A DNA stretch of 20,630 nt from Candidatus Desantisbacteria bacterium CG1_02_49_89 (GCA_001871075.1 MNUP01000111.1:1-20630), one strand, 5' to 3'. Shown: positions 2,683 to 16,156, counted from the stretch's first letter. Numbers and translations are program-made. The notes: generated by a model not told the origin, from the sequence alone.

Positions 2683-2698
2683 TCGCGAGGACAGGATA

Positions 2699-3694
2699 AT
2701 GGCGTTTAAATTAAAAATTAAAAATTCAAAATTAAAAATGAGCGCAATAATCTTTGGTGCCATTGTTTTTGCCTTACACCTTACACCTTACACGTTACAC
2801 GTTAGTTACGCCGCCAGCCCCGGCACAGAAGGGGCTCCTTTCCTGAAGATAGGTCCGGGGGCAAGGGCAGTCGGTATGGGAGAGGCTTTTGTCGCTGTTG
2901 CGGACGATGCCACGGCTATGTTCTGGAACCCCGCGGGCATAGTGCAGCTGAAACAGCGAGAAATTTCATTTATGCATAACTTTTGGTTCCAGGGAGTATA
3001 TTACGACTATTTTGCCTATGTGCAGGAACTGCCCGGCCCGGGCAACGAAAAGTTAGGCATTAACGTGACTTATCTGCAATATGGCGACATGATCAGAACG
3101 CTTGAAGACGCGTCAGGTATCTACACCGGCACGGGCAGCAATTTTGCAGCTTCTGACCTTGCTCTTGGGCTCACGTATGCCTGGGAAATGGGCTCGAACC
3201 ACAGCCTCGGCGTCAATCTTAAATTCATACGTTCCATGATGGACGATGTGTCAGGTGACGCGATATGCCTGGATTTCGGCTATCTTTTCAGGATAAACCC
3301 CGCTCTTTCGGTGGGGGCAAACGCGCAGAACAGCGTTGTTTCAATGCCCATCCGTTTTTACAGGGGCCTGACCGCGGTTTCATCCCCGCACATCCTTCCC
3401 ATAAACGGAAAGGTCGGGCTTGCGTACAGGCTGCCTTTTATAATGCTTGTTTTTGACGTGAATTTCCCGCTTGAAAATTGCGTAAATTACCATGTTGGAA
3501 TGGAATATAAGGTCTCGGATCGTCTTTGCGTAAGGGCAGGATACAAGACTGACCTTATAACAAGTTTAGACGCGCTCTCGGGATTATGCGCCGGGTTTGG
3601 TTTTAACTGGGCAGGTTATAATATTGATTATGCCTTTGTTCCATATGGTGACCTGGGCCAAACCCACCGAATTTCACTTAGCATGAAATTCTGA
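2699..3694 (+). CDS. PorV/PorQ-like outer-membrane beta-barrel protein
   Basis: This 331-residue protein belongs to the PorV/PorQ (UPF0164) group of FadL-like outer-membrane barrels. The diagnostic N-terminal block is present: FLKIGPGARAVGMGEAFVAV (48-67) followed by ADDATAMFWNPAG (68-80). The rest alternates hydrophobic and polar residues as expected of beta strands, and the protein ends in SLSMKF with a terminal Phe typical of barrels. In Bacteroidota, PorV is the shuttle of type IX secretion; many relatives elsewhere are uncharacterised. ATG 2699 is preceded by GAGGA (2687-2691). An in-frame ATG at 2738 lacks a ribosome site. The N-terminus is odd: residues 4-14 and 25-38 are encoded by short tandem DNA words of the kind found in the spacers. 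Its neighbours are two secreted proteins with CTD-like ends. Confidence 0.82.
   Translation: MAFKLKIKNSKLKMSAIIFGAIVFALHLTPYTLHVSYAASPGTEGAPFLKIGPGARAVGMGEAFVAVADDATAMFWNPAGIVQLKQREISFMHNFWFQGVYYDYFAYVQELPGPGNEKLGINVTYLQYGDMIRTLEDASGIYTGTGSNFAASDLALGLTYAWEMGSNHSLGVNLKFIRSMMDDVSGDAICLDFGYLFRINPALSVGANAQNSVVSMPIRFYRGLTAVSSPHILPINGKVGLAYRLPFIMLVFDVNFPLENCVNYHVGMEYKVSDRLCVRAGYKTDLITSLDALSGLCAGFGFNWAGYNIDYAFVPYGDLGQTHRISLSMKF
2708..2740 (+). repeat. heptad tandem array AAATTAA inside a gene start
   Basis: Four 7-nt units (AAATTAA, AAATTAA, AAATTCA, AAATTAA) occupy 2708-2735 and a partial unit follows. They encode the lysine-rich n-region of the PorV-like signal peptide. The array resembles those found in non-coding spacers of this window. 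Confidence 0.8.
2773..2809 (+). repeat. heptad tandem array CTTACAC/GTTACAC inside a signal peptide
   Basis: Three copies of CTTACAC and one of GTTACAC fill 2773-2800, then GTTA and a diverged unit follow. Because 7 is not a multiple of 3, the word is read in successive frames and encodes residues 25-38 (LHLTPYT then LHVSY), just before the predicted cleavage site. Confidence 0.85.
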
Positions 3695-3708
3695 TACCCA
3701 TATTCCGG

Positions 3709-3761
3709 AAAAAAGCAAAAAAGCGAAAAAACTTGACAAAAGCCGGTATTTATGCTAATAT
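3709..3761 (+). promoter_or_regulatory. strong sigma-70-type promoter with upstream A-tracts
   Basis: A perfect -35 TTGACA lies at 3733-3738, followed by a 17-nt spacer ending in TGC (extended -10) and TAATAT at 3756-3761. Directly upstream, three runs of six A (3709-3714, 3717-3722, 3726-3731) recur every 8-9 nt, as in an UP element. It drives the secreted protein at 3816, giving a 5' leader of about 45-50 nt. This is the best promoter in the window and argues for high expression of that gene. Confidence 0.78.
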
Positions 3762-3815
3762 ATATATTACTTCAAGTAAAATATATAAATTTGAATATAA
3801 ATCATAGGGGGCGTC

Positions 3816-5099
3816 ATGAGGTTTAAATATATGTATTTATTGCTTATATTAGCAGTAATAGCAGGGGTCGTCGCAGGTCCCTGTTCCGCAGCGGTTGTTT
3901 CCAAGAAGGTTTACAACGTGGCAGAGGTCACCTACCTGCATTCAAACGGGGATACCCCTGCGCCGGACGAGATGACTCCGGACGGGAAGCTTGTGGTGCT
4001 TCCCCTTCAGAGCAACATCTGCCAGGCAAAGGGAGTGATAGATTCGCCAGACAGCGTTTTCGGTTTTAAAGCCACGTTTGTGAATACCGCGGTTATTATG
4101 ACATGGAGGCAAGTCGTAAGATACAACAATGACACCCTCGGGGACATAAACATCACCAAATACGTAATATACCGGGCCGGAGAGGACCGCAATTTCGCGT
4201 TCTTTGCCGAGGTTGACAGCCAGACCTTCTCCTGCACTGACCTTACGCCGCCGACGGTTGCCTACTACAAAGTTGTGGCGGTTGACGATATGGACAATAC
4301 AAGCGGCTATTCCTTAGTGCTTGACAACAACAGGATCGCCTACGTGTTCAGGGGAGACATAGACACGAGCAGGGATACGTTCACAAGGCTTGTAGTGCCG
4401 GCAGGCGCCCAGGGGATAATTTACGGGGGCGGTGACTACGACCTTCACCTTGAGGCGGCCAGGGACCAGGCGGACGAGGGCAAATCGCAGACGATCGGAG
4501 GGACCAAGGGCAATATTTCCACAAGCATATCCTTCAAGCCGTACAGGTATAAGAACAGGGAGCAGCTCGCGAGCCTGGGTTTTCCGGAGAAAGTCCAGAT
4601 AATGCTTCGCTACGAAATAGACGACAAGGGCCTTATCAAGAACACGACGCTTCCCGCAAGCAAGGCAAAAGACAAGCTGGGTTTTTATTATTATAACGGG
4701 ATCGAATGGGTGAAGATACCGGCAACGCTTGACCAGGCCAGCCAGACGCTTGTTGCCACTGTCAGCCACTTAAGCAAATACGCGCTCATAGCAGGTTTTA
4801 CCAATCCCACAGCCCTCACGCTGACAAAGAGGATCCCGCCCATTATAACGCCCAACGCCGACGGGATAAACGACAGATGTTTCTTCTACTACGACGGTTT
4901 CAAGGCGGGGACGACTCCCAGCCTAAAGATCTTTGACCTGAGCGGTTCGCTTGTCGCGGAAGTCACTCAGGTTATACCCGGGCAGATGGAATGGGACGGA
5001 AAAGACATGACCGGCGCGGTGATGGATTCAGGTATCTATGTATATCAGATCCAGGCAGGTGATGAGATAATCACCGGCAGTGTTGTGCTGGCAAAATAG
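3816..5099 (+). CDS. secreted FN3-like protein with gliding-type C-terminal domain
   Basis: This 427-residue exported protein has ATG 3816 preceded by AGGGGG (3806-3811). The signal peptide spans 1-26, with a long hydrophobic core and cleavage near SAA; the Cys at 23 follows Pro, so a lipobox is unlikely. A fibronectin-III-like domain is seen at about 80-165 (MTWRQ, KYVIYRA, AYYKVVAVD). A domain at about 240-325 ends in the pattern YYYNGIEWVKI then VSHLSKYALIA, common in bacterial surface proteins ahead of sorting domains. The C-terminus (about 337-427) has the gliding-associated motif ITPNADGIND (344-353), SLKIFDLSGSLV (369-380), MEWDGKD (391-397) and SGIYVYQI (405-412). This matches CHU_C/FlgD_ig or type-B sorting domains. 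It has its own promoter and terminator, so it is a single-gene unit. Ligand or substrate is unknown. Confidence 0.8.
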   Translation: MRFKYMYLLLILAVIAGVVAGPCSAAVVSKKVYNVAEVTYLHSNGDTPAPDEMTPDGKLVVLPLQSNICQAKGVIDSPDSVFGFKATFVNTAVIMTWRQVVRYNNDTLGDINITKYVIYRAGEDRNFAFFAEVDSQTFSCTDLTPPTVAYYKVVAVDDMDNTSGYSLVLDNNRIAYVFRGDIDTSRDTFTRLVVPAGAQGIIYGGGDYDLHLEAARDQADEGKSQTIGGTKGNISTSISFKPYRYKNREQLASLGFPEKVQIMLRYEIDDKGLIKNTTLPASKAKDKLGFYYYNGIEWVKIPATLDQASQTLVATVSHLSKYALIAGFTNPTALTLTKRIPPIITPNADGINDRCFFYYDGFKAGTTPSLKIFDLSGSLVAEVTQVIPGQMEWDGKDMTGAVMDSGIYVYQIQAGDEIITGSVVLAK

Positions 5100-5152
5100 G
5101 GTATACCCGGAGAGTGTCTGATAATAAACCTACTCTTATTAGGATTTGATAT

Positions 5153-5188
5153 AAATAAGCATACCTGCTGAGGGTGTGCTTATTTTTT
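5153..5188 (+). terminator. intrinsic terminator
   Basis: Twelve base pairs form between AATAAGCATACC (5154-5165) and GGTGTGCTTATT (5173-5184), with one T-G wobble and a 7-nt loop. A run of six T follows at 5183-5188. It lies 54 nt after the stop of the secreted FN3-like gene. Confidence 0.88.
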
Positions 5189-5191
5189 ATG

Positions 5192-5209
5192 CGGTGCCAA
5201 AAGGCACCG
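5192..5209. repeat. 7-bp hairpin with AAAA loop
   Basis: CGGTGCC (5192-5198) and GGCACCG (5203-5209) are perfect complements around AAAA. No T-run follows, so it is not an obvious terminator. It is the first of several adjacent hairpins in this gap. Confidence 0.7.
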
Positions 5210-5215
5210 TTGATT

Positions 5216-5269
5216 ATCCCCGCTGTCCCGATTACCTATCGGGACAAAACGCGGGGATCCCTTAGGGAC
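5216..5269. repeat. nested hairpin element with GGGGATCC-N4-GGGAC tail
   Basis: The outer stem ATCCCCGC (5216-5223) / GCGGGGAT (5251-5258) encloses the inner stem TGTCCCGAT (5224-5232) / ATCGGGACA (5238-5246). The tail, a 17-mer of form GGGGATCC-N4-GGGAC (5253-5269), recurs at 5354-5370 and 15383-15399. The inner stem recurs at 10273-10288 and 10455-10471. It is therefore a composite of dispersed repeat modules. Confidence 0.75.
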
Positions 5270-5280
5270 GCCGATTTTGA

Positions 5281-5401
5281 TGTCATTGCGGGCCCGCCAA
5301 TAAAAGCAGTGGCGGGCGCGGCAATCCCGTCGTTAAAAACGAGATTGTCCCAAGGGGATCCCCTTGGGACCTTTGGGACTTCGCTTTCGCTCGCAAAGAC
5401 A
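5281..5401. mobile_element. MITE-like 121-bp element with 10-bp inverted ends
   Basis: The left end TGTCATTGCG (5281-5290) and the right end CGCAAAGACA (5392-5401) are inverted repeats with one mismatch. Inside are a perfect 8-bp stem GCCCGCCA (5292-5299) / TGGCGGGC (5310-5317), an imperfect stem CAATCCCGT / ACGAGATTG around 5322-5347, and a perfect 24-nt palindrome (5347-5370) centred on GGATCC. GTCATTGCG...CGCAATGAC-ended dispersed repeats occur in many bacterial genomes. It has no coding capacity and no convincing target duplication. Copies elsewhere in the genome would confirm it. Confidence 0.7.
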
Positions 5402-5441
5402 AGCTACCAATGTATTATATGATTTTCCTTGAGAGGGTGAT

Positions 5442-6386
5442 GTGAAAACAGGATTCATAGCCGTTCTTATATTTTTTGCAGCCGCAGCAGCAGGCGTGCC
5501 GGGTCTTCATGCTTTCCAGTGCGAAAAAGCCGCGGTGCTGGGTAAAAACCAGGTGGTCCTGAGCGAAGGCCTTCTTTACACGAAATTTTCCCCTGTTACG
5601 GAACCGAAGGTTTTCGAGGAGAATCCCGCGCTCACGCTGAACGGTATCACGGCAGACCATGATATTTGGGATGTGCCTTTTGAAATAAGGATAGGTTTTA
5701 CCGAGAATTTCACGTTCGGTATTTCAGCGTCATATTTATGCAATATATTCAATGCAACAGGATGGGTTTTTGCCCTCGGCACATACAATTTTACCTCGAG
5801 CGGCATTTCGGGAATAGGTTTTAAGGGCCTGCAGCGTATTATCGCGGAAGACAGCCCTGTGCCGGGCCTTTCTCTTCTTTACGGAGTTTCTTTTCCTCTG
5901 GGTGAGGATGATTACGTAGCCCAGGACAAAAACGAAAGTTTCAGAATGCCTTTAGGTGATAGGGGGGTAACGCTTTCTGTGATCGAAGCGATCAGCAGGG
6001 ACCTGGGCTGGTTCGCCCTGCACCTTAATCTCGGTTATGACCTGAGGCTTCCATATACCCAGAAGAAGAACTGGAAGGGCGACGCGGTCTCTGACCGCAT
6101 TCTTGATCCGGGGGACAGGTTCATATACGGCGCAGCTTTTGAATGGAAATGGACAGGGGTTTCTTTTATATTTGAGATTGACGGCTGCGCCTGCGGCAAT
6201 TCAACGCTGGACGGCGCTTCCATAGAAGGTTCGGGCACGCATACGGTCCAGCTCATACCCGGCTTTAATTTCTCGCCCGGCGCATCACTTACCATTGAGG
6301 CCGGTTTTAAGGCGGCAGTGCTGAGCAGGGGCGCAAACGCGGAATATTTCTACGGACCTGTTTTCAGGATGGAACAGAAACTGTAG
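5442..6386 (+). CDS. outer-membrane beta-barrel protein heading the mla operon
   Basis: This 314-residue protein starts at GTG 5442, preceded by GAGAGGG (5431-5437); the ATG at 5440 is followed at once by a stop. The signal peptide covers 1-24 with cleavage near LHA-FQ. The rest is a string of amphipathic strands (FEIRIGFTENFTFGISASY, FKGLQRII, GLSLLYGVSFPLGED) reminiscent of the MetA-type outer-membrane transporter family. The protein ends PVFRMEQKL. A CAC motif (249-251) sits in a loop. It is followed after only 13 nt by mlaE, so its barrel may be the outer-membrane partner of the lipid transporter, although no MlaA lipoprotein is seen. The substrate is not known. Confidence 0.72.
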   Translation: MKTGFIAVLIFFAAAAAGVPGLHAFQCEKAAVLGKNQVVLSEGLLYTKFSPVTEPKVFEENPALTLNGITADHDIWDVPFEIRIGFTENFTFGISASYLCNIFNATGWVFALGTYNFTSSGISGIGFKGLQRIIAEDSPVPGLSLLYGVSFPLGEDDYVAQDKNESFRMPLGDRGVTLSVIEAISRDLGWFALHLNLGYDLRLPYTQKKNWKGDAVSDRILDPGDRFIYGAAFEWKWTGVSFIFEIDGCACGNSTLDGASIEGSGTHTVQLIPGFNFSPGASLTIEAGFKAAVLSRGANAEYFYGPVFRMEQKL

Positions 6387-6399
6387 GGCAGGGAGACAG

Positions 6400-7176
6400 A
6401 TGAAGGAAATTGTCGAAAACCTCGGCAGGCAGGCCCTGGCTTTCTTAAGGCACCTGGGAGGGATATTCCTTTTATTTTTTTCCACGATATACTGGACATT
6501 CCAGCCTTCAAGGCTGAAAAAAAATATTTTTTCCCAGATGGTATTTGTAGGAATGGATTCTTTACTTATTATCGGGGTCACGTCTTTACTTATAGGCATG
6601 GTAACTGCCTGGCAGACAGGAATTGCCATAGAGCAGTTCGGTGCCAAAACCTATATCGGCGGAATTGTGGCAGTAGCCATTGCCAGGGAGATGGCGCCGC
6701 TTATGGTCGGCCTGATGTGCGCCGGCAGGGTCGGTTCGTCCTTCGCGGCTGAGATAGGCTCAATGAAGGTGACCGAACAGATAGACGCGCTTAAAACGCT
6801 TGCGGTTGAGCCTGTTCAGTACCTTGTTGTCCCCAGGTTCCTCGCCTGCCTTGTAATGATGCCTGTGCTGGTTATTTTCGCTAACGTGATAGGGTTGTTC
6901 GGCGGCTGGCTTGTCGCGACCAGGAACCTTGGTGTGGATTCAGCCATATACATAAACCACGTGCTGTCGTTTACTAAGTTCAAGGACCTTTATGCGGGCC
7001 TGACAAAAGCAGCCGTATACGGGATAATTACGTCCATTTTCAGCTGTTACAGGGGCCTTGAGGTGAGAGGCGGGTCCGAAGATATAAGCCGCGCTACGAC
7101 TTTTGCCGTGGTATTTTCATGCCTTGCAATACTGGTTGCCGATTATTTCTTCTCGGTACTTTTCAACCTGATGTGA
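6400..7176 (+). CDS. mlaE: MlaE-family ABC lipid transporter permease
   Basis: This 258-residue inner-membrane permease belongs to the MCE-type system that moves phospholipids between inner and outer membranes. Five or six hydrophobic segments are seen (about 20-34, 50-70, 87-106, 147-172, 203-218, 233-255). The family signature lies at about 96-138: REMAPLM, then AGRVGSSFAAEIGSMKVTEQ, then IDALKTLAVEP. The conserved CYRGLEVRGG (216-225) precedes the last helix. Its length is normal for MlaE. ATG 6400 follows GGGCAGGGAG (6387-6396). It forms an operon with the barrel upstream and with mlaF and mlaD downstream. Confidence 0.93.
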   Translation: MKEIVENLGRQALAFLRHLGGIFLLFFSTIYWTFQPSRLKKNIFSQMVFVGMDSLLIIGVTSLLIGMVTAWQTGIAIEQFGAKTYIGGIVAVAIAREMAPLMVGLMCAGRVGSSFAAEIGSMKVTEQIDALKTLAVEPVQYLVVPRFLACLVMMPVLVIFANVIGLFGGWLVATRNLGVDSAIYINHVLSFTKFKDLYAGLTKAAVYGIITSIFSCYRGLEVRGGSEDISRATTFAVVFSCLAILVADYFFSVLFNLM

Positions 7177-7184
7177 TCTTCGAA

Positions 7185-7913
7185 ATGATAAAAATCCAGA
7201 ACCTGTATAAAAAATTCGGCGGGCATGAAGTGCTCAGCGGCCTTGACCTGGAGGTAAAATCCGGGGAGCTGATGGTAATAATCGGGCCAAGCGGCTGCGG
7301 CAAGAGCGTGCTGCTGAAACACATAATAGGCCTGGTCAGCCCGGATTCTGGCGCGATCTTTATCGACGGCATCGATATAACGAACCTCAGCGAAGCGAAG
7401 CTGAAAAAAATAAGGTTCTTGTTCGGCATGGTGTTCCAGGGCGGGGCTCTTTTTGATTCGCTTACGGTTGAGGAAAACGTCGCGTTCGGCCTGAGGCTGC
7501 ACACGGATAAAAGCGAAGAGGAGATCAGGCGGATAGTAAAGGAAAAACTGGGGCTTGTAGGGCTTGAGAACATAGAAGACCGCAGGATAGACGAACTTTC
7601 CGGTGGGATGAGGAAGAGGGTTGCCCTTGCCCGCGCCATTGTAATGAACCCCAGGATAATTCTTTATGACGAACCTACTACGGGCGTGGACGTGGCAATG
7701 ATAGACAACGTCAACCGCCTGATCAGGGATCTGCAGGACAGGCTTAAGGTCACCTCGGTCGTGGTAACGCATGACCTTGAAAATGCGTATAAGGTTGCGG
7801 ACAGGATAGCGGTTTTTCACTCCGGCAGGATCGCGCGGATAGAAACAGTCGAGAAAATGAGGGAAATGGAAGAAGAAATATTGCAAAAATACATGGGGAA
7901 ATCGGCTTTATGA
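7185..7913 (+). CDS. mlaF: MlaF-family ABC transporter ATPase
   Basis: This 242-residue ATP-binding subunit powers MlaE. Visible motifs are Walker A GPSGCGKS (34-41), Q-loop Gln85, signature LSGGM (138-142), Walker B IILYDE (158-163) and the switch histidine of VTHD (His196). DEPTTGVD is typical of the MlaF/Mkl branch. ATG 7185 lies 8 nt after the mlaE stop and lacks a good ribosome site. A GTG at 7173, overlapping that stop as GTGA, would add VIFE and is an alternative; either way translation is probably coupled to mlaE. Earlier in-frame starts inside mlaE encode a sequence unrelated to the family. Confidence 0.93.
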   Translation: MIKIQNLYKKFGGHEVLSGLDLEVKSGELMVIIGPSGCGKSVLLKHIIGLVSPDSGAIFIDGIDITNLSEAKLKKIRFLFGMVFQGGALFDSLTVEENVAFGLRLHTDKSEEEIRRIVKEKLGLVGLENIEDRRIDELSGGMRKRVALARAIVMNPRIILYDEPTTGVDVAMIDNVNRLIRDLQDRLKVTSVVVTHDLENAYKVADRIAVFHSGRIARIETVEKMREMEEEILQKYMGKSAL

Positions 7914-7921
7914 GGTGAGAT

Positions 7922-8782
7922 ATGAAGGATAAAAATCCTGAACTGAAAGCAGGCATACTGATATTCGCGGGCATCGCGGTTCTTTTCACGTTCACGTTCA
8001 TGATCGGCAGGTTCAATTTTTTCAAGAAGGGCTTCGAGATAAAAGCGAAGTTCAACTTCGTGGAAGGAGTTGAGGTCGGTTCACCGGTCAGGTACAGCGG
8101 AGTTAAAGTGGGAGCTGTCACAGCCATTCAGATAGACCCGGATAATCTTGTCTGCCTTTCGATCTGGTTCCAGGATGGCGCCAGGGTCAAGGACGATTCA
8201 AAGTTCTACATAAACACGCTGGGTTTCATGGGAGAGAAATATATCGAGATAGACCCCGGTGTTTCAACCGCATACCTTAAGAAAGGATCTGTGGTCATGG
8301 GTGAACAGTCAAGGCGCCTGGAAGAGCTGATAAGGCAGGGCACTGAGATAGCTTCTGACGCCGGCAGTATAGTTTCATCTATCAGGGGAGTAACGGATAA
8401 GTTGTCCCTGGATCAGCTGGAGGCAGCCATAGCAGACCTAAAGTCGATCATGGCGGAGCTGAACGCAAGCGGTACAAAGATACTAAGCAACCTGAAGAAG
8501 ACCACCGGGGACCTGAACGACATTACGTCCTCAAAAAAAGAGGACGTTCAGATAGCTATTTCAAAACTGAAGGAATCATCGATAAAACTGGATAAGAGCA
8601 TCACAACTCTGAGCGTTATTTTGGACAGGATAGAAAAGGGAGAAGGCACGGTAGGGGTCCTGGTCAGCGACAAGAAGGTGGCTGAAGATTTCAAGGAAAT
8701 AGTGACGAACCTTAAGGCGTTCAGCAAGGATATAAAGGACAACCCCCAGTGGCTTTTGATGGGCAAGCCGGGCAAGAAATAG
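7922..8782 (+). CDS. mlaD: MlaD-family MCE lipid-binding protein
   Basis: This 286-residue periplasmic protein is anchored by one N-terminal helix (about 9-28). A single MCE domain spans about 38-115 (FNFVEGVEVGSPVRYSGVKVG, then FMGEKYIEI), which in this family forms hexameric rings that carry lipids to or from MlaFE. The C-terminal half (about 145-270) is a long helical, coiled-coil-like region with GEGTVGVLV (240-248), longer than in E. coli MlaD (183 residues) and more like LetB/Mce relatives. ATG 7922 has GAGGTGAGA just upstream and lies 8 nt after mlaF. No mlaB or mlaC homologue follows. Confidence 0.92.
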   Translation: MKDKNPELKAGILIFAGIAVLFTFTFMIGRFNFFKKGFEIKAKFNFVEGVEVGSPVRYSGVKVGAVTAIQIDPDNLVCLSIWFQDGARVKDDSKFYINTLGFMGEKYIEIDPGVSTAYLKKGSVVMGEQSRRLEELIRQGTEIASDAGSIVSSIRGVTDKLSLDQLEAAIADLKSIMAELNASGTKILSNLKKTTGDLNDITSSKKEDVQIAISKLKESSIKLDKSITTLSVILDRIEKGEGTVGVLVSDKKVAEDFKEIVTNLKAFSKDIKDNPQWLLMGKPGKK

Positions 8783-8787
8783 TAACA

Positions 8788-8821
8788 GTTGAAGGTTAAA
8801 AGTTGAAGGTTAAAAGTTAAA
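8788..8821 (+). repeat. heptad tandem array GTTGAAG/GTTAAAA
   Basis: GTTGAAG and GTTAAAA alternate twice (8788-8815), giving a perfect 14-nt duplication, then GTTAAA follows. It begins 5 nt after the mlaD stop. Confidence 0.85.
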
Positions 8822-8850
8822 TCTGTGGTAATCCGTGTAAATCTGTGGTT
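8821..8850. repeat. decamer tandem array ATCTGTGGTA
   Basis: Three 10-nt units occur in register: ATCTGTGGTA, ATCCGTGTAA, ATCTGTGGTT. The same family occurs in reverse orientation after coaBC at 10124-10155, so the two copies bracket that gene as inverted repeats. Confidence 0.82.
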
Positions 8851-8863
8851 AAAAGAGATTAAT

Positions 8864-10066
8864 ATGCTGAAGGGGAAGGAAATAATTCTGGGCGTAACCG
8901 GAAGCATTGCCTGCTACAAGGCAGTGGAGGTAGTCAGCCGCCTGAGGAAGCTGGGCGCGAACGTCAATGTCGTTATGACAGACAGCGCTAAGCAGTTTGT
9001 CGCTCCCCTGACGTTCCAAACCATATCCTGCAACCCGGTCCATACAGGCGTCTTCGATATAAAAGAGTATAATATAGAACATGTTTCCCTTGCAAAAAAA
9101 GCGGAGCTTATTGTCATTGCGCCGGCAACTGCCAATGTCATTTCAAAGATGGCTTCAGGGATCGCTGACGACCTGCTGACCGCGACCGTGCTTGCGGCGC
9201 GCTCAAAAATACTCGTAGTTCCGGCAATGAACGAAGGCATGTTCAGGAACCCCATCCTGCAGGAAAATATCAGGAAACTGCGCAGGCACGGATTCCTTTT
9301 CGCCGGACCTTCTAAAGGCGGTCTTGCGTGCGGCGAGGAAGGCGAGGGGCGGATGATAGAGCCTTCTGAAATAGTCGATGAAGTCGTAAAGCTTATAGGC
9401 GCCAGGCAGGACCTGAAAGGCAAAAAAGTTATCGTTACGGCAGGGCCCACAAGGGAATTCATAGATCCGGTAAGGTTTATTTCGAATCCTTCCAGCGGGA
9501 AGATGGGTTTTGCGCTTGCAGAAGAGGCAAGAGACCGGGGGGCAGAAGTCGTGCTCATATCAGGTCCCGTAGGTATCAAAGCCCCGCAGGGCGTCAGGTA
9601 TATCCCGGTCACGTCTGCAGAACAAATGAGAAATGCAGTAAACAATGCCTTTAATGTCTGCAATGCCGTCATAATGTCTGCGGCGGTTTCAGACTGGGAA
9701 TCTTCAGGCTGTGCAGCGGACAAAATAAAGGCGCGTGAAGGACCTTTGGAGCTGAAACTCAATAGAACGCCTGATATAATTGCGGGGCTGGGCAGGAAAA
9801 AAGGCAAAAGGGTGCTTGTAGGTTTCGCCCTTGAAACAAACGGGCTTATAAAAAACGCCAAGATCAAACTGAAGGAAAAGAACCTTGATCTGGTTGTTGC
9901 CAACAGGGCAAGCAACGGTTACCCGTTCGGCAGCGATACCAACAGGGTTGTGATCATCGAGCGCAGCGGCAAAACCACGGAACTGCCTGAGCTGCCCAAG
10001 TCCGAAATCGCCAGGAAGATAATAGATAAGATCGTGAACATATTTACCACGAAAGTACGAAATTAA
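8864..10066 (+). CDS. coaBC: CoaBC: phosphopantothenoylcysteine synthetase/decarboxylase
   Basis: This 400-residue bifunctional CoA enzyme joins cysteine to 4'-phosphopantothenate (CTP-dependent) and then decarboxylates the product to 4'-phosphopantetheine. The N-terminal flavoprotein CoaC domain (1-180) shows TGSIACYKA (12-20), active-site His73 in EHVSLA, PAMN (120-123) and catalytic Cys156 in LACGEEGEGRM. The CoaB domain (187-400) shows TAGPTREFIDPVRFISN (192-208), SSGKMG (210-215), the AADKIK lysines (287, 289) and VVANRAS. Its length is normal. ATG 8864 is used; an in-frame GTG at 8825 would translate the decamer repeat and is rejected. The ribosome site is weak (AAGAGA). coaD lies downstream beyond a tRNA gene. 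Confidence 0.95.
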   Translation: MLKGKEIILGVTGSIACYKAVEVVSRLRKLGANVNVVMTDSAKQFVAPLTFQTISCNPVHTGVFDIKEYNIEHVSLAKKAELIVIAPATANVISKMASGIADDLLTATVLAARSKILVVPAMNEGMFRNPILQENIRKLRRHGFLFAGPSKGGLACGEEGEGRMIEPSEIVDEVVKLIGARQDLKGKKVIVTAGPTREFIDPVRFISNPSSGKMGFALAEEARDRGAEVVLISGPVGIKAPQGVRYIPVTSAEQMRNAVNNAFNVCNAVIMSAAVSDWESSGCAADKIKAREGPLELKLNRTPDIIAGLGRKKGKRVLVGFALETNGLIKNAKIKLKEKNLDLVVANRASNGYPFGSDTNRVVIIERSGKTTELPELPKSEIARKIIDKIVNIFTTKVRN

Positions 10067-10352
10067 CCACAGAGAGCACAGAGAAATTTTCTACTTTTGC
10101 AAATAACTAACAACTGCTTTTTAACCACGGATTAACACAGATTATCACGGATTTTAATTTTATAAACTATGTAAACTCTATAAACTTTGTAAACTTGTAA
10201 ACTACGTTTATAGCGATAAGCCATAAACGATATGCGATAAGCGATTTGTAAGTGCGGGGGTATAAGAACCTTCCCGATTAGCATCGGGAAGAACCTTGTT
10301 GCTTGATAATTAAACGTCGGTGGCGTGCCGCAATATGTCCGGGTGCGAGAAT
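10067..10352. repeat. 286-nt spacer composed of five short-word arrays and a hairpin
   Basis: No gene is visible. In order it holds: a nonamer-like pair (CACAGAGAG, CACAGAGAA) at 10070-10087; decamers ACCACGGATT, AACACAGATT, ATCACGGATT at 10124-10153; TAAACT five times at 9, 9, 9 and 8-nt spacing (10163-10203); heptads GATAAGC, CATAAAC, GATATGC, GATAAGC, GATTTGT at 10215-10249; and a hairpin flanked by direct repeats at 10264-10297. From 10298 to 10352, just upstream of the tRNA, no convincing promoter was found. Confidence 0.8.
10264..10297. mobile_element. mini-hairpin CCCGAT-TAGC-ATCGGG flanked by 9-bp direct repeats
   Basis: The 16-nt hairpin CCCGATTAGCATCGGG (10273-10288) is bounded by AAGAACCTT on both sides (10264-10272 and 10289-10297). 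The same stem occurs at 5227-5243 and 10455-10471 with loops of five. The direct repeats look like a target-site duplication, though a tandem-copy origin is possible. Confidence 0.55.
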
Positions 10353-10425
10353 GGGGGTATAGCTCAGCTGGTAGAGCGATTCGTTCGCAACGAATAGGTC
10401 AGCGGTTCGAATCCGCTTACCTCCA
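10353..10425 (+). tRNA. tRNA-Ala (anticodon CGC)
   Basis: The 73-nt sequence folds as a complete cloverleaf. The acceptor stem is GGGGGTA / TACCTCC and contains the G3-U70 pair, which is the identity element for alanine. The D stem is GCTC/GAGC with loop AGCTGGTA. The anticodon stem is ATTCG/CGAAT with loop TTCGCAA, so CGC (10386-10388) reads GCG. The T arm is AGCGG-TTCGAAT-CCGCT. The discriminator is A; the CCA end is not encoded. Confidence 0.95.
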
Positions 10426-10473
10426 ATTTTTTCGCTTTGCGAAAAAATTAGAGTCCCGATGCAACATCGGGAC
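10425..10473 (+). terminator. two hairpins directly after the tRNA, possible terminator
   Basis: An 11-bp perfect stem joins AATTTTTTCGC (10425-10435) and GCGAAAAAATT (10439-10449), using the tRNA discriminator base. A second stem, GTCCCGATG / CATCGGGAC with a CAA loop (10453-10473), follows. The T6 lies in the first arm and not after the stem, so classical termination is uncertain; 3' tRNA processing or the inverted-strand sense is equally possible. The second stem belongs to the CCCGAT...ATCGGG family. Confidence 0.45.
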
Positions 10474-10512
10474 GGTCCATTGCTCAATTTTCTGTATCTA
10501 AAAGAGGTATCT

Positions 10513-11010
10513 ATGAAACGCGTAGCTGTTTATCCGGGGGCGTTTGACCCGCCCACCTACGGGCACCTGGACGTGATCAAAAGAGCCCGGCACCTTTTTG
10601 ACAGAGTCGTGGTGGCTGTGCTGGAAAATCCCGGCAAGCGCTGCCTTTTCAGTGTTGATGAGCGCATGAAAGCCCTCGGGGAGATCACAAAGGGCATGAA
10701 GGGCGTGGAGATAAGCAGGTTCAAGGGACTTCTGGTAAACTATGTGAAGATGAGAAATGCATGCGCCGTCGTAAGGGGATTGCGGGCAGTGTCAGATTAC
10801 GAATACGAGCTGCAGATGGCGCAGATGAACCGGGAGCTAAGCACCAGGATCGAAACAGTGTTTTTAATGACCAGCACTCCTTATTCCTATCTTAGTTCAA
10901 GTATTGTCAAGGAGATAGCGGGGTTTGGCGGAGACGTGAGCAAGTTCGTCCCTCCCGCAGTGGAGCGCATGCTCAAGAAGAAATATGCTGTCGGCAAGAG
11001 CCGTCTCTGA
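10513..11010 (+). CDS. coaD: CoaD: phosphopantetheine adenylyltransferase
   Basis: This 165-residue enzyme transfers AMP from ATP to 4'-phosphopantetheine, the penultimate step of CoA synthesis. Nucleotidyltransferase motifs are PGAFDPPTYGHLD (8-20, with the TxGH histidine at 18), RGLRAVSDYEYELQMAQMN (89-107) and SSSIVKE (128-134). Its length is the family norm. ATG 10513 follows AGAGG (10503-10507). An in-frame ATG at 10459 falls inside a hairpin repeat and would add an unrelated 18-residue leader, so it is rejected. With coaBC it places most of CoA synthesis from phosphopantothenate in one region. Confidence 0.95.
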   Translation: MKRVAVYPGAFDPPTYGHLDVIKRARHLFDRVVVAVLENPGKRCLFSVDERMKALGEITKGMKGVEISRFKGLLVNYVKMRNACAVVRGLRAVSDYEYELQMAQMNRELSTRIETVFLMTSTPYSYLSSSIVKEIAGFGGDVSKFVPPAVERMLKKKYAVGKSRL

Positions 11011-11014
11011 TTTA

Positions 11015-11042
11015 ATTATGAATTATGAGTTATGAATTATGA
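11015..11042. repeat. heptad tandem array ATTATGA
   Basis: Four units occur in register (ATTATGA, ATTATGA, GTTATGA, ATTATGA), starting 4 nt after the coaD stop and followed by TTGAAGG. Confidence 0.82.
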
Positions 11043-11066
11043 TTGAAGGAAATTGAAATAGTTTTT

Positions 11067-11099
11067 ATCCGCAGCCATCCGTTAAAATCCGCTTAATCG
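11067..11099. repeat. decamer-like array ATCCG
   Basis: ATCCGCAGCC, ATCCGTTAAA and ATCCGCTTA follow each other at 10-nt spacing, then ATCG. The array lies between coaD and secD, 20 nt ahead of the secD start. Confidence 0.6.
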
Positions 11100-11119
11100 T
11101 ATTAATTGGAAGGAGAAAA

Positions 11120-12412
11120 ATGAGAAGAAACCAGTGGAGGATCATACTGATAGTCGGAGTCGTGGCGGTTTCGGTGTGGGCTATATACCCGCCGCAGGAA
11201 AAAATACACCTGGGCCTTGACCTTCTGGGAGGAATGCACCTGATCCTTGAAGTGGACACTTCAAAGCTTCAGGAGGGCGTTACAGCCTACGAAGCGGTTG
11301 ACCGGGCTCTTATGGTCATAAGGAACCGCATAGACCAGTTCGGAGTAGTGGACCCGCTCGTGCAAAGGCAGGGGGACAACTGGATAGTAGTCCAGCTGCC
11401 AGGGGTCAAGGACCCACAGAGAGCGCTGGACATAATAGGGAAAACCGCGCTTCTTGAATTCAAGCTGCTGGATGAAGAGGGAGACCTTGATTCGGCTCTC
11501 AAGAACCCGGAGGGCATGCCTGAGGAAGATGAGGTGCTTTACGACAGGGAAGGCAAGGCGTTCCTGATCAAGAAAGAGACGCTCCTCACAGGCGCGGCGC
11601 TTTCGCAGGCAAGGGTGGAGCTTGAGGAGTTCGGGCGCCCGTCAATAGGATTTGAGATGAACCCGGACGGAGCCAAGAAATTCGCGCGCATAACAAGAAG
11701 GAACGTGGGAAAATTCCTTGCCATCATTCTGGACGGCAAGATCTATTCCGCTCCCAGGATAAGCGAGGAGATCTCGGGCGGCAAGGGAAAGATAACCGGC
11801 AGTTTCAATATAGAGACAGCAAACGACCTTGCTATAGTGCTGAAGGCAGGCGCGCTTCCCGCGCCGGTGCAGATAATAGAAAAGAGGGTCGTAGGGCCTT
11901 CTCTCGGAGAGGATTCTATACGCAAGGGCTTATTCGCGTCAGCCTTAGGCCTGTTGCTTACAATGGCTTTTGTCGTTTTTTATTACAAGCTTTCCGGACT
12001 TGTCGCGGATTTCGCGCTTGCCCTGAACCTTGTGATACTTCTCGGAGCAATGGCGGGTTTCAAGGCAACGCTGACTTTACCAGGTATCGCCGGAATGATA
12101 CTCAGTGTAGCGATGGCAGTGGACGCGAACGTCCTGATATTCGAAAGGATAAAAGAGGAGATCGCCGCAGGCAAGAGCCCTTACCCGTCCATAGCCGCGG
12201 GGTATAAGAGGGCATTCCCGGCAATATTAGATTCCAACCTGACCACGCTCATAGCGGCCGCGCTTCTTTTCCAGTTCGGGACCGGACCCGTAAAAGGTTT
12301 CGCGGTAACGCTGACCCTGGGTATTTTGATCAGCATGTTCACGGCAATAATTGTCACCCGTGTCATTTTTGATGAGAGCGTCCCGAGGGACGCAGAAAGG
12401 CTCAGCATTTAA
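11120..12412 (+). CDS. secD: SecD protein-export membrane subunit
   Basis: This 430-residue subunit of the SecDF complex uses the proton gradient to help pull proteins through SecYEG. TM1 lies at about 8-23, a periplasmic region at about 24-268 begins with GLDLLGGMHLILEV (32-45), and five helices follow at about 271-288, 293-310, 318-337, 370-387 and 393-415. The SecD hallmark AVDANVLIFERIKEE is at 333-347. It is shorter than E. coli SecD (615), as is usual outside Proteobacteria. ATG 11120 has GGAAGGAG (11108-11115) upstream. secF follows after a 76-nt spacer. Confidence 0.95.
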   Translation: MRRNQWRIILIVGVVAVSVWAIYPPQEKIHLGLDLLGGMHLILEVDTSKLQEGVTAYEAVDRALMVIRNRIDQFGVVDPLVQRQGDNWIVVQLPGVKDPQRALDIIGKTALLEFKLLDEEGDLDSALKNPEGMPEEDEVLYDREGKAFLIKKETLLTGAALSQARVELEEFGRPSIGFEMNPDGAKKFARITRRNVGKFLAIILDGKIYSAPRISEEISGGKGKITGSFNIETANDLAIVLKAGALPAPVQIIEKRVVGPSLGEDSIRKGLFASALGLLLTMAFVVFYYKLSGLVADFALALNLVILLGAMAGFKATLTLPGIAGMILSVAMAVDANVLIFERIKEEIAAGKSPYPSIAAGYKRAFPAILDSNLTTLIAAALLFQFGTGPVKGFAVTLTLGILISMFTAIIVTRVIFDESVPRDAERLSI

Positions 12413-12416
12413 AGAC

Positions 12417-12468
12417 AGTTGTCAGTTGCGAGTTTAACTGACAACTCACAACAGATAACTCACAACTT
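12417..12468. repeat. opposed heptad arrays forming a hairpin between secD and secF
   Basis: GTTGTCA, GTTGCGA, GTTTAAC (12418-12438) meet ACAACTC, ACAACAG, ATAACTC, ACAACTT (12441-12468) in the opposite sense. AGTTGTCAGTT (12417-12427) and AACTGACAACT (12436-12446) are perfect 11-bp complements with an 8-nt loop. No T-run follows, so it probably does not terminate; it could tune secD/secF ratio or mRNA stability. Confidence 0.78.
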
Positions 12469-12488
12469 GCACTTAAACAGGGGGAGAA

Positions 12489-13499
12489 ATGGAATTTTTC
12501 AAGAACACAAAATTTGATTTCATAGGGAAAAGAAAAATAGCTTACACCGTGTCGATAGTGCTTGCGGTCATCGGTTTAGTTTCGATAATATCAAAAGGCG
12601 GGTTGAACCTGAGCATTGATTTCGTAGGCGGGACCCTTATCCAGATGAAGTTTGAGCCGATGCCTGGTATGGAAGAAATACGCAAGGTGCTTGCGGACAA
12701 CGGCCTGAAAGGCGCGCAGCTGCAGCATTTCCCTAAAGAGAGCGAGATAATCATCAGGGTCAAAAAAGGCGAGCAGATCACGGAGGAAGTAAGCCCTGAC
12801 ACAGCCGCGCAGGCTTCCGGAGAAACGCAGTCCTACGGTGAAACCCGGTCGCTGGCAGCTTTTTCTGAAACCGCTGCCGCGTCTCCCAGGATGGGCAGTG
12901 TCGAGAAGAAGTTTAATGATATGTTCAGCGCGGCATTCCCCGGCGCCAAGATAGGCATAATCAGGGCTGAAATGGTGGGGCCGAGTGTCGGAAAAAAACT
13001 GCTAAGCCAGGCGGTATGGGCTCTGTTCTGGGGTATGATAGGTATCATGATCTATGTGGGCTGGAGGTTTGAATTTAAATATTCGGCTCCGGCCGTGCTG
13101 GCTCTTTTGCACGATGTTTTCATAGTCACAGGCCTTCTGACCCTTTTCAACATGGAAATAGACATGACAATAATAGCGGCGCTGCTTACCATAGTCGGTT
13201 ATTCCATAAACGACACCATTGTTGTTTACGACCGCATAAGGGAGAAGGTGAAGATGTACGCGAGGGACGAGATAGGCAAGGTGATGAACGTGGCGATAAA
13301 CGACACGCTGGGCAGGACGTTTATCACCGGGCTCACGACGATCATTGTGCTGCTCTGCATTTTCTTTTTTGGGGGCGAAGTGATACACAGTTTCGCGTTC
13401 TCGCTGCTGCTGGGTGTCGTCATAGGGACTTATTCCTCCATATTTGTGGCAAGCCCGCTTGTATACGAATGGGATAAAAGGTACAGGAAAGCAAGATAA
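12489..13499 (+). CDS. secF: SecF protein-export membrane subunit
   Basis: This 336-residue partner of SecD has TM1 at about 18-35 and SIDFVGGT (42-49) opening the periplasmic domain. Helices at about 173-192, 199-219, 226-245, 276-293 and 299-322 include the SecF signature GYSINDTIVVYDRIRE (237-252). VGPSVGKKL (163-171) precedes TM2. Residues 100-136 form a Ser/Ala/Glu/Thr-rich, low-complexity insertion in the periplasmic domain that typical SecF proteins lack. ATG 12489 is preceded by GGGGGAG (12480-12486). Confidence 0.94.
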   Translation: MEFFKNTKFDFIGKRKIAYTVSIVLAVIGLVSIISKGGLNLSIDFVGGTLIQMKFEPMPGMEEIRKVLADNGLKGAQLQHFPKESEIIIRVKKGEQITEEVSPDTAAQASGETQSYGETRSLAAFSETAAASPRMGSVEKKFNDMFSAAFPGAKIGIIRAEMVGPSVGKKLLSQAVWALFWGMIGIMIYVGWRFEFKYSAPAVLALLHDVFIVTGLLTLFNMEIDMTIIAALLTIVGYSINDTIVVYDRIREKVKMYARDEIGKVMNVAINDTLGRTFITGLTTIIVLLCIFFFGGEVIHSFAFSLLLGVVIGTYSSIFVASPLVYEWDKRYRKAR

Positions 13500-13503
13500 A
13501 ACA

Positions 13504-13535
13504 GTGTCAGCGTATCAACGTGTCAACGTGTCAAA
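13504..13535. repeat. octamer tandem array GTGTCAAC (secF-recJ spacer)
   Basis: Four 8-nt units occur: GTGTCAGC, GTATCAAC, GTGTCAAC, GTGTCAAA. The array starts 4 nt after the secF stop. The same word family begins at the same place after clpP (16018). Confidence 0.85.
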
Positions 13536-13580
13536 CTGAAATACCATTGAAAATAAAAAAAATGATAGAAGGGAAAAAAT

Positions 13581-15269
13581 ATGAAATGGAATATAGCGTA
13601 TTGCGACGAGAATCTTAAAAAGAATCTCGCGAACGAGCTGGGCATCCCCATGCTGCTGGCGCAGATGCTCATGAACAGGGGTATCATGAAGATAGAGGAC
13701 GCGTTCAGGTTCATCAGCCCGCAGCTTAAGCACCTCCATGACCCTTTTCTTATGAAGGGCATGAAGGAAGGGGTGGACAGGCTAAAAAAAGCCATACAGA
13801 AAAAAGAACAGATGTGCATATACGGCGATTATGACACTGACGGCATTTCGGGAGCAGCCGTGCTTTTCATAATCCTGCAGAAACTCGGGGCGAACGTCAT
13901 TTCGCACATACCTCACAGGATCAAGGAAGGTTACGGCCTGAACGCGGATACGATAAAAAGGCTGAGCGAGGAAGGCACGAAGATCCTGATAACGGTTGAC
14001 TGCGGCATTACGTCTGTCAGCCAGATAAGCCTGGCAAGGCAGCTGGGGATAGACGTGATACTCACGGACCACCACCAGCCCCTGGCGATGTTCCCTCCCG
14101 CAAATATTATTATAAACCCGAAGCAGTCAGACTGCCCGTATCCGTTCAAGGAACTCGCCGGCGTGGGCGTGGCGTTCAAGCTGTGCCAGGCCCTTGACAG
14201 CGCTGAGGCAGGAGGCCTGCTGCGGAACGAGGAGCACCTGGACCTTGTTGCGCTGGGCACGATCGCGGACCTCGTGCCGCTGAGGGATGAAAACCGGATA
14301 TTTGTCAAATACGGCCTTGAATCATTTTCAAGGACCACAAAACCCGGGCTGAAAGCGCTCGGGGAGGTCAGCGGCACCGACCTGGAAGACATAGATGCGA
14401 GCCATATCGGTTTCAAGTTCGCCCCCAGGATCAACGCGGGCGGGAGGATGGGTGACGCGAAGAGAGGCCTGAGCCTTCTCCTGTCAAAGGATTTCCAGGA
14501 AGCGATGGTGCTTGCGACGATGCTGAACGAGGAGAACAGGTCAAGGCAGCGCGTGCAGGAGCAGGTTTTCAAGGAAGCGCAGGCAGCTGCGCAGGGCACG
14601 GACCACAAAGGGAAGGGCATTATAGTCATTTCTTCGGATAAATGGCACAGGGGAGTCATAGGCATAGTTGCTTCGCGCCTGGTCGAGGAATTCAGTTGCC
14701 CGGTCGTGGTCATAAGCATAGAAGACGGGGTTGGCTACGCGTCTGCGCGCAGCGTCGAAGGTATCAACATAATGGACGTTATCAATGAAGGCGCGGACCT
14801 TCTGTATTCCTACGGCGGCCACAAGTATGCGGCGGGTTTCACGGTAAAGGAAGACAAGATCGCGGAGCTCAAGGAGAAGATCGAATCCGCGATCGCGAAA
14901 CTGCCTGAAAGGACGGAAATACAGCGCCAGGCGCTGGCTGAGGCCGAGATGGACCCCACCGAAATTCTCTCAAGCGTTTTTAAGGACTGCCTCAGGCTTT
15001 TTTCGCCGTTCGGAAAAGAAAATCCCTATCCGGTCTTCATAGCAAGGGATATGAGGGTGATATCACCCCAGGTAACGGGAAGCGGGCACCTGCGCATACT
15101 GCTTGAGGGAAGCGGCGGCAAAATAGAGATGATAGGTTTCAGGAAAGGCGATATGGCGCAGGAACTCAGCGCGGGTATTTTCATCGACGTCGTATTTTCC
15201 CCGCATATAGACAAAAGCGGCGATCTTTACATGAGCCTTGAGGATTTCGAGATCCCGGAAGCGGTATAA
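13581..15269 (+). CDS. recJ: RecJ single-strand-specific 5'-3' exonuclease
   Basis: This 562-residue cytoplasmic DHH-family nuclease works in recombinational and mismatch repair. Metal-binding motifs are DYDTDG (83-88), VDCG around Asp140, and DHH (163-165). They are followed by LVALGTIADLVPL (222-234), APRINAGGRMGD (281-292), RGVIGIVASRL (357-367) and the DHHA1 motif GGHKYAAGF (412-420). A C-terminal OB-like domain (about 455-562) completes the usual RecJ layout. ATG 13581 has AGAAGGGA (13567-13574) upstream. It is probably transcribed with secDF. Confidence 0.95.
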   Translation: MKWNIAYCDENLKKNLANELGIPMLLAQMLMNRGIMKIEDAFRFISPQLKHLHDPFLMKGMKEGVDRLKKAIQKKEQMCIYGDYDTDGISGAAVLFIILQKLGANVISHIPHRIKEGYGLNADTIKRLSEEGTKILITVDCGITSVSQISLARQLGIDVILTDHHQPLAMFPPANIIINPKQSDCPYPFKELAGVGVAFKLCQALDSAEAGGLLRNEEHLDLVALGTIADLVPLRDENRIFVKYGLESFSRTTKPGLKALGEVSGTDLEDIDASHIGFKFAPRINAGGRMGDAKRGLSLLLSKDFQEAMVLATMLNEENRSRQRVQEQVFKEAQAAAQGTDHKGKGIIVISSDKWHRGVIGIVASRLVEEFSCPVVVISIEDGVGYASARSVEGINIMDVINEGADLLYSYGGHKYAAGFTVKEDKIAELKEKIESAIAKLPERTEIQRQALAEAEMDPTEILSSVFKDCLRLFSPFGKENPYPVFIARDMRVISPQVTGSGHLRILLEGSGGKIEMIGFRKGDMAQELSAGIFIDVVFSPHIDKSGDLYMSLEDFEIPEAV

Positions 15270-15289
15270 TTCCATAAGATAAATATTTT

Positions 15290-15324
15290 AAATTTCAAAT
15301 TGCAAATTTCAAATTGCAAATTTT
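15290..15324. repeat. heptad tandem array AAATTTC/AAATTGC
   Basis: AAATTTC and AAATTGC alternate twice (15290-15317), a perfect 14-nt duplication, then AAATTTT follows. It lies 20 nt after the recJ stop. Confidence 0.85.
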
Positions 15325-15343
15325 TTCCTTCAATCTGAAATTT

Positions 15344-15404
15344 ACAATCTACCCCCGCCGGTTTTTTATTAAATCTAGACGCGGGGATCCTTTTGGGACA
15401 ATCT
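15344..15404. mobile_element. about 47-49-bp hairpin element with 5-7-bp target duplication
   Basis: ACAATCT occurs at 15344-15350 and at 15398-15404, bracketing a GC-rich insert. The insert has a CCCCGC (15353-15358) / GCGGGG (15381-15386) stem and ends in the GGGGATCC-N4-GGGAC 17-mer (15383-15399) shared with 5253-5269 and 5354-5370. Removing the insert and one copy restores a continuous AATCTGAAAT-type tract (compare 15331-15341 with 15399-15409). This is the best evidence here that the 17-mer belongs to a mobile unit. Confidence 0.6.
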
Positions 15405-16017: not shown

Positions 16018-16068
16018 GTGTCAAGTTAAAAAGCGTATCAAAGTGTCAACGTGTCAACGTGTCAACGC
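16018..16068. repeat. octamer tandem array GTGTCAAC (clpP-lon spacer)
   Basis: After GTGTCAAG at 16018, units GCGTATCA, AAGTGTCA and then GTGTCAAC repeats run to 16068. It is the same family and the same position after a stop codon as at 13504. Confidence 0.83.
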
Positions 16069-16084
16069 AACAGCAAGGATTTTA

Positions 16085-16114
16085 TTGAAGTTATGGCACA
16101 ATGTCCGATATTAT
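16085..16114 (+). promoter_or_regulatory. candidate lon promoter
   Basis: TTGAAG (16085-16090), an 18-nt spacer and TATTAT (16109-16114) resemble a sigma-70 promoter, 56 nt ahead of lon. The -10 matches 5 of 6, the -35 matches 4 of 6. No CIRCE or clear heat-shock promoter was seen. Confidence 0.4.
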
Positions 16115-16131
16115 GAGTTTCGGTAGTTACT

Positions 16132-16156
16132 CTGACACGCTGATACGCTGACACGC
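16132..16156. repeat. inverted copy of the octamer array upstream of lon
   Basis: CTGACACG, CTGATACG, CTGACACG is the reverse complement of the octamer family. TGACACGCTGATACGC (16133-16148) complements 16033-16048 at 14 of 16 positions, so the two could form a long stem enclosing the candidate lon promoter. Confidence 0.75.

Follow-up and report, generated by a model that had tools for sequence, protein, structure and literature searches.

Contig MNUP01000111.1 (GCA_001871075.1) of Candidatus Desantisbacteria bacterium CG1_02_49_89, whose 20,630 nucleotides are called the window here, carries short tandem arrays of seven-nucleotide words, and it raises the question of how such arrays can keep one period and nearly one total length from place to place while the word itself changes. 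The window is one complete contig of a 2.48 Mb, 150-contig draft genome, and the genome-wide counts given below cover 1.37 Mb of it (101 contigs, 55%). The original prediction, made from the window, was of seven intergenic arrays, each with a word of its own, four to five units long (28-35 nt) and in several cases alternating two sub-words with a 14-nt period. Tandem Repeats Finder (TRF) reports an array of period 7 (or 14) at every one of the seven places (Table 1); unit number and length are as described, and the alternation holds for the arrays at 8787 and 15290. The arrays at 2708 and 2772, however, are not intergenic, since they lie inside an open reading frame (ORF) of the PorV family (2699-3694). 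The explanation that we prefer, and to which we give a little better than an even chance, is that many small non-coding intergenic repeat elements of palindrome type, which have spread as selfish DNA, have these arrays as their terminal, inward-pointing arms.

Recurring word families and their common architecture

To assess chance, arrays that pass a fixed self-match threshold were counted in 871 spacers (173 kb), with dinucleotide-preserving shuffles as the control. The spacers hold 61 arrays of period 7, 28 of period 8, 18 of period 9, 12 of period 10 and 29 of period 14, and the shuffles 0.1 in total; the period scan against shuffled sequence that had been proposed thus returns a strong excess of period 7, and in the same spacers not one array of periods 2-6 passes the threshold. 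Arrays of period 7 or 14 number 102 in 0.78 Mb of this genome as compared to nine in 1.49 Mb of mixed control loci from many phyla, and the 161 kb read of a related genome (same order, 38% GC) contain essentially none. An assembly or binning artefact is hardly credible: the genome is a draft and a few arrays sit at contig ends, but arrays of ~31 nt are present on 72 of the 101 contigs, reading frames stay open through them in conserved genes, and they obey the orientation rules described below.

The statement that the word differs at each locus is true inside the window and fails genome-wide, where most words recur. Further copies at an identity of at least 80% number 67 for the array at 11014, which belongs to the commonest 7-mer family (ARTKATG), 30 for 8787, 26 for 15290, 18 for 2772, eight for 2708 and one for 10212; the 43-nt stretch tested at 12441 has no further copy at that identity. 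Clustering sorts the recurring words into some nine or ten 7-mer families, two 8-mer families of larger size, and one 9-mer and two 10-mer families; the window's arrays of 8, 9 and 10 nt words (at 13503, 16032, 16128, 10159, 10121 and 8818) are the same phenomenon. Scanning with 17 consensus words, composed manually from the first 0.78 Mb and overlapping in some cases (ACGTCGN and CGTRCGA), gave 561 non-overlapping arrays, or ~1,000 if scaled to the genome. With ~15 words each present at many loci, the window has merely sampled several families, and the contrast once drawn with one-word genomes such as those of cyanobacteria is not supported: words recur here too, and there are many of them.

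That period and total length persist where the word does not is borne out by a sharp length peak across families. The mode is 31 nt, i.e., four units plus three bases, in ARTKATG, AAGTRTC, CAGTRTC, ACGATGV, ACGTCGN and ACWAATG among others, and longer arrays are few; the A-rich families are longer (median 36 for RGTTRAA and 39 for AAATTKH). Most families have a single dominant start phase and a single dominant end phase. Counted without any consensus, length is 3 modulo 7 in 79 of 273 arrays, against 9.3 predicted from the same arrays cut to whole units with their flanks shuffled.

Orientation is equally regular. At the left edge of a spacer a family appears on a fixed strand and at the right edge as the reverse complement, with 384 arrays agreeing and 64 disagreeing (n = 448). 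Polarity was set by each family's own majority, a rule that the null model takes into account: random strands under the same majority rule give 256±7 agreements, and never more than 277 in 1000 trials. The inward polarity also holds for solo arrays (181/213). Adjacent arrays of the same word point inward in 55 cases, outward in none and along one strand in 13, and those of unlike words inward in 33, outward in one and along one strand in 36. Between co-directional genes there are 54 same-word inverted pairs, with a median start 3 nt past the stop codon and a median end 17 nt before the next start. Phasing of the words to begin with TTA, TTG or TTT, which had been suggested, is not the organising rule; inward polarity from the spacer edges and the pairing of inverted arms are what order the arrays. 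The co-directional layout of the genome is itself striking, 782 of the 820 spacers of at least 20 nt on the 101 contigs separating genes on the same strand.

As RNA, array-bearing spacers fold only a little more strongly than the others do (median z -2.1 vs -1.7). A role in RNA revealed by a G-U strand preference in the hairpins was considered and rejected, the two strands having 57 and 69 wobble mismatches and mean folding energies of -34.7 and -34.8.

The best-defined elements are those of ARTKATG, ~100 nt in length, of which 25 complete ones share 82% mean pairwise identity across arms and core; in 15 of 19 cases the unit at position 3 is the same variant. Their inner sequence is CAACNNCAAGGA-TTTTATT plus its mirror image, and this core also stands beside 25 of the 78 arms of the 8-mer family MGTRTCAR, where 2.8 are expected; at L208:14661-14797 it is flanked by a 7-mer arm on the left and an 8-mer arm on the right. 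The core is thus common to the two largest families, and the arm architecture can therefore carry different words and even different periods. The asymmetric ARTKATG element does not keep to one direction with respect to genes (merely 16 to 6).

On the explanation that we prefer, a typical element would consist of two inverted arms around a core of ~10-60 nt, each arm made of ~4.4 tandem copies of one short word of 7, 8 or 9 nt. The words would define families, one core would serve at least two of these, and paired arms may bear different words. Elements would fill spacers from just past the stop codon to just upstream of the ribosome-binding region of the next gene, and arms would also be found singly and as in-frame stretches of genes, chiefly at N-termini. 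The most likely mechanism would be spread as selfish DNA in the manner of miniature inverted-repeat transposable elements (MITEs) or repetitive extragenic palindromic (REP) sequences. Dispersal of whole elements is shown for the ARTKATG family and presumed for the other families. As for the word arrays of the arms, they most likely arose by reiterative copying in which the degenerate positions are fixed, and they would be kept wherever they are harmless.

Arrays inside genes

Genes, as called by a simple hexamer-based script, contain ~79 arrays; 24 of these fall in the first 120 nt, against an expectation of 8. Most of these are single arms of ~31 nt, and they are read in several frames. The window's example is the PorV/PorQ-family gene, whose two arrays fall within the first 36 codons, where they code the N-terminus (MAFKLKIKNSKLKM) and the end of a likely signal peptide (ALHLTPYTLHVSYA). 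In conserved enzymes, the array-coded stretch of leucyl-tRNA synthetase (leuS) adds seven residues relative to the closest homologue, an array in threonine synthase (thrC) adds seven by homology and one in TsaD eight; HypF (hypF) has two, with +12 to +15 and +6 to +8 residues, and a LeuC-like isomerase has one with a length change of about zero. A fixed insertion of 21 nt per in-gene heptamer array was tried and dropped: it fits LeuRS and ThrC and fails for LeuC (~0) and HypF (+12 to +15).

Giant adhesin-like proteins with repeated domains (FYYRDxxVGSPVLTVxRxxLxxDTQ) are encoded at L059:4196-19999, L202:2-7384 and L022:5563-18369. One homologous 27-nt site in these domains is occupied by four different heptamer words with no net change in length, which is the strongest hint of in-place word replacement. 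Two proteins (L207:9473-10543 and L187:3381-4322) also have the in-frame reading SPLALNGQAGGISLPA of a stretch that is not an array; in the former it lies between two heptamer arrays, and it is missing from a 70% identical homologue in genome G001.

Unit variation and the origin of the arrays

Units of one array resemble each other (0.81-0.89) to the same degree as units of different arrays of the same family (0.79-0.89), which is not the behaviour of a slippage microsatellite. The variants that do occur are locked to particular positions of the word, in all 12 clusters tested at a permutation p of at most 0.012 and in most at p < 0.0005. In GTTRAAR all 44 of the 44 minority units differ at two positions (the two R positions to which the variants of the RGTTRAA family in the window are restricted); in ACTNTRTAA the variable positions account for 72 of 80 minority units, and in GTCATTN a single position accounts for 22 of 26. 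The rate is 0.20 variants per site at the two variable positions and 0.016 elsewhere. Arrays within genes show the same restriction more weakly (53/82; the expectation for a heptamer is 2/7), and a larger share of them is perfect (36/82 vs 29/270). Because variants fall at one or two fixed positions per family, neutral decay is disfavoured; the locking reflects either purifying selection on the remaining positions or an array-making process whose degenerate positions are fixed.

These data bear directly on independent local slippage, in which arrays would grow in place from chance seeds and heptamers would be favoured by polymerase geometry, as Mrazek et al. (2007) proposed according to PMC4679880 and PMC4692102. 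Period 7 is indeed also the commonest short period in the control loci of other phyla, and lengths of 7n+3 would be in keeping with arrays that grow between 3-nt direct repeats. Slippage leaves unaccounted for, however, the sharp 31-nt mode with its few longer arrays, the recurring families, the inward polarity and the shared core, and it is disfavoured because the units within an array are no more alike than those between arrays; we regard it as improbable. The original prediction that ordinary slippage would not suffice is upheld by the length peak, by the equal likeness of units and by the fixed variant positions alike.

Functional binding sites are also unlikely, if somewhat less so. Each word would be bound by a DNA- or RNA-binding regulator particular to it, much as MacGregor (2015) proposed for TAACTGA, and selection would keep about four sites at gene edges and would also hold the invariant word positions; variation at one or two positions per word does resemble purifying selection on each unit, and the arrays are placed near stops and starts. 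Against this, some 15 words would need as many regulators, the same words, with the same restricted positions, code stretches of leuS, thrC, hypF and other genes, the hairpins show no RNA strand bias, and a core common to different words is not predicted.

A third possibility, to which we give little credence, is template-directed repeat writing of a telomerase-like or diversity-generating kind, with about four copies of a short template added at DNA or hairpin ends and with families corresponding to templates. It would suit the length of four units plus 3 nt, the dominant start and end phases, the position-locked degeneracy (which includes the in-gene arrays, many of them perfect), and the four words at one adhesin site without change in length. 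No template RNA was identified and no moving or writing enzyme was found, the genome offering one partial reverse-transcriptase match; this possibility is entirely inferential. In its stronger form, a dedicated activity would copy guide words, each with degenerate positions of its own, about four times at DNA ends or hairpins and could put a new word over an old one without altering the length of the site, as the adhesin site with its four words suggests. Such overwriting and a guide-word writing activity are in our view improbable.

To return to dispersed selfish elements, these gain support from the inward arms, which form terminal inverted repeats as in MITEs, from the array-coded stretches in conserved genes and from the absence of arrays in the 161 kb of the related genome. 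Several observations weigh on the other side. A same-word inverted partner at 70% identity or more was found for merely ~20% of arrays, and in several families units at the same position are little conserved between loci, or not at all. Arms of doublets are no better conserved than solo arms, singlets being equally or slightly more alike, and solos are therefore not simply decayed doublets. No empty site or movement was seen, the available relatives being too distant. The shared core is firmly established for two families alone. Y1 transposases are not linked to the arrays: the genome has 10 Y1_Tnp matches, and an array lies within 1.2 kb of one of the seven Y1_Tnp genes in the sequence read. 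One short Y1 transposase of IS200-like type (L194:3536-3898) has the hairpin CCCCGCGGCTTGCCGCGGGG on both flanks.

Relation to known repeats and features of the window

The excess of heptamers in bacteria has been reported since 2007, and without a settled explanation; heptamers are the commonest class of long simple sequence repeats in prokaryotes and have been attributed to slippage (Mrazek et al. 2007, cited through PMC4679880 and PMC4692102). These citations mention neither a set length nor rules of polarity or pairing. The closest parallels are the GGGNATC and GGGGAYT heptamers of Xanthomonas and Nostoc, which in the sections of Rehm et al. (2015, PMC4692102) used here are described as intergenic, mostly of four units and with degenerate word positions, Xanthomonas having ~70 convergent inverted pairs per genome that lie nearer the 5' neighbouring gene. 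Period 7 excess in spacers, a majority of four-unit arrays and convergent inverted pairs are found here as well. Those genomes have one G-rich word each, discussed in terms of G-quadruplexes, whereas here there are ~15 words, none with the G-tracts of a quadruplex-capable sequence; many-word families, 8-9-mer arms round a shared core and in-frame stretches in essential enzymes are not described in the same sections. A universal trinucleotide (AGT/CGT) in all words seemed plausible on inspection but was rejected for lack of enrichment (21 words with AGT/ACT vs 19.7±3.7 expected from within-word shuffles). The architecture resembles that of the Xanthomonas heptamers, with many words in place of one, and the system is best classed among the bacterial heptamer repeats as a variant with many words.

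TAACTGA repeats, heptamers in sets of two to six units, lie in spacers of Beggiatoaceae, Cyanobacteria and Bacteroidetes; they are patchily distributed and were proposed to be sites for a translational regulator, with one favoured word, rare related heptamers and a position just upstream of start codons (MacGregor 2015, PMC4679880). Spacer heptamer sets and patchiness are shared with the present system; the single favoured word and the start-codon placement are not. REPINs have two inverted conserved arms round a spacer, form hairpins and occur extragenically in several families per genome; their arms are palindromic REP sequences, doublets are better conserved than singlets, and RAYT genes are adjacent (Bertels and Rainey 2011, PMC3116915). 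Inverted extragenic doublets are found here too, in the 54 pairs, but the arms are tandem words, and the tests for a conservation advantage of doublets and for an adjacent RAYT (Y1 transposase) were both negative. Rickettsia palindromic elements, ~150 bp long and of several families, also occur in frame in protein genes, where they code a conserved peptide (review PMC10969869); no such ~150-bp palindrome or conserved peptide was found here, and tandem-word arms are not described there.

The array system is patchy and not private to its lineage, since the RGTTRAA word is present in ten of 290 genomes searched and another genome (G116) has AGTTATN arrays, close to AGTTATC, the reverse complement of TAACTGA. 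One of the ten, genome G206, has 31 RGTTRAA matches at many places with the same A/G variation; a control pattern, AATTATG backwards, matches G206 32 times, so that it seems to have another heptamer family peculiar to it. Nine distant genomes, picked for carrying other words, lack the word of the commonest 8-mer family.

With many word families in one genome, word, length, orientation and unit variation can be told apart. Any explanation has to accommodate the length mode, the inward polarity, the shared core and the position-locked variation, and these argue against a general origin in slippage or G-quadruplexes; the arrays do share a common architecture. Short repeat blocks are also read as peptides within essential enzymes and form parts of likely signal peptides.

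Table 1. Repeat features of the window (strand "." is unassigned)
Feature	Position	TRF span or basis	Strand	Context
AAATTAA array, inward-pointing left arm	2705..2739	2708-2739	+	inside 5' end of PorV-family ORF; codes KLKIKNSKLKM; paired with unlike-word right arm 2773..2803
CTTACAC array, exactly 31 nt, right arm	2773..2803	2772-2804	-	same ORF; codes ALHLTPYTLHV
RGTTRAA array	8787..8818	8783-8821	+	spacer between MCE/MlaD-like and coaBC-like genes (names from ORF reading), 4 nt past stop
10-nt word array (AATCTGTGGT / AATCCGTGTA)	8818..8850	8818-8847	+	adjoins RGTTRAA array
10-nt word array TTAACACGGA	10121..10153	TRF	.	
9-nt word array TRTAAACTN	10159..10204	TRF	-	
GCGATAA heptamer array, degenerate	10212..10245	TRF	.	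one more copy in read part of genome
ARTKATG array, 31 nt, left arm	11014..11044	11014-11042	+	3 nt past stop of phosphopantetheine adenylyltransferase-like gene
Shared inner core remnant (TGAAGGAAATTGAAATAG)	11045..11062	comparison with L060:13483 and other copies	+	right arm missing
Short inverted pair, left arm AGTTGTCAGTTGCGAGTT	12417..12434	sequence reading	+	between secD and secF; local fold z -3.7
Right arm ACTGACAACTCACAACAGATAACTCACAACT, 31 nt (ACAACTC array)	12437..12467	12436-12467	-	between secD and secF
8-nt word array MGTRTCAR, solo	13503..13535	TRF	+	3 nt after secF
AAATTKH array (AAATTTC/AAATTGC), left arm	15285..15324	15285-15323	+	between recJ and clpP
Core remnant TTCCTTC and imperfect right arm AATCTGAAATTTACAATCT	15326..15350	sequence reading	-	fold pairs it with left arm 15285..15324
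Complete element, left arm, 8-nt word MGTRTCAR	16032..16067		+	between clpP and lon; 16032-16156 is the sole complete element of the window
Complete element, inner core	16068..16127		.	starts CAACAGCAAGGATTTTATTG, like ARTKATG elements
Complete element, right arm	16128..16156	TRF	-	

The genes of the window are ordinary bacterial ones, all in one direction, and include those for asparaginase, the PorV-family protein, recJ, clpP, lon and serA; family matches were obtained for six of the proteins searched, and Rfam matches were to tRNA only. The PorV-family gene lies between those of two proteins that match C-terminal sorting domains of type IX secretion (1129-2682 and, more weakly, 3816-5099), and the region 1129-5099 suggests, from its sequence, a type IX-like export route in this lineage. 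Other repeats are abundant in the spacers of the genome, namely TGTCATTGCGAG/GAAGCAATCTCG, pairs of GATTACRGTGATT ~21 nt apart, and the hairpins GTAACTCAGGGCTTTAGCCCTGAGTTAC and CGGGGCGAGACCTCGCCCCG; examples are found at L046:11315-11532, at L008:3582 and in the flank of L024:3766, and some are nested in array elements.

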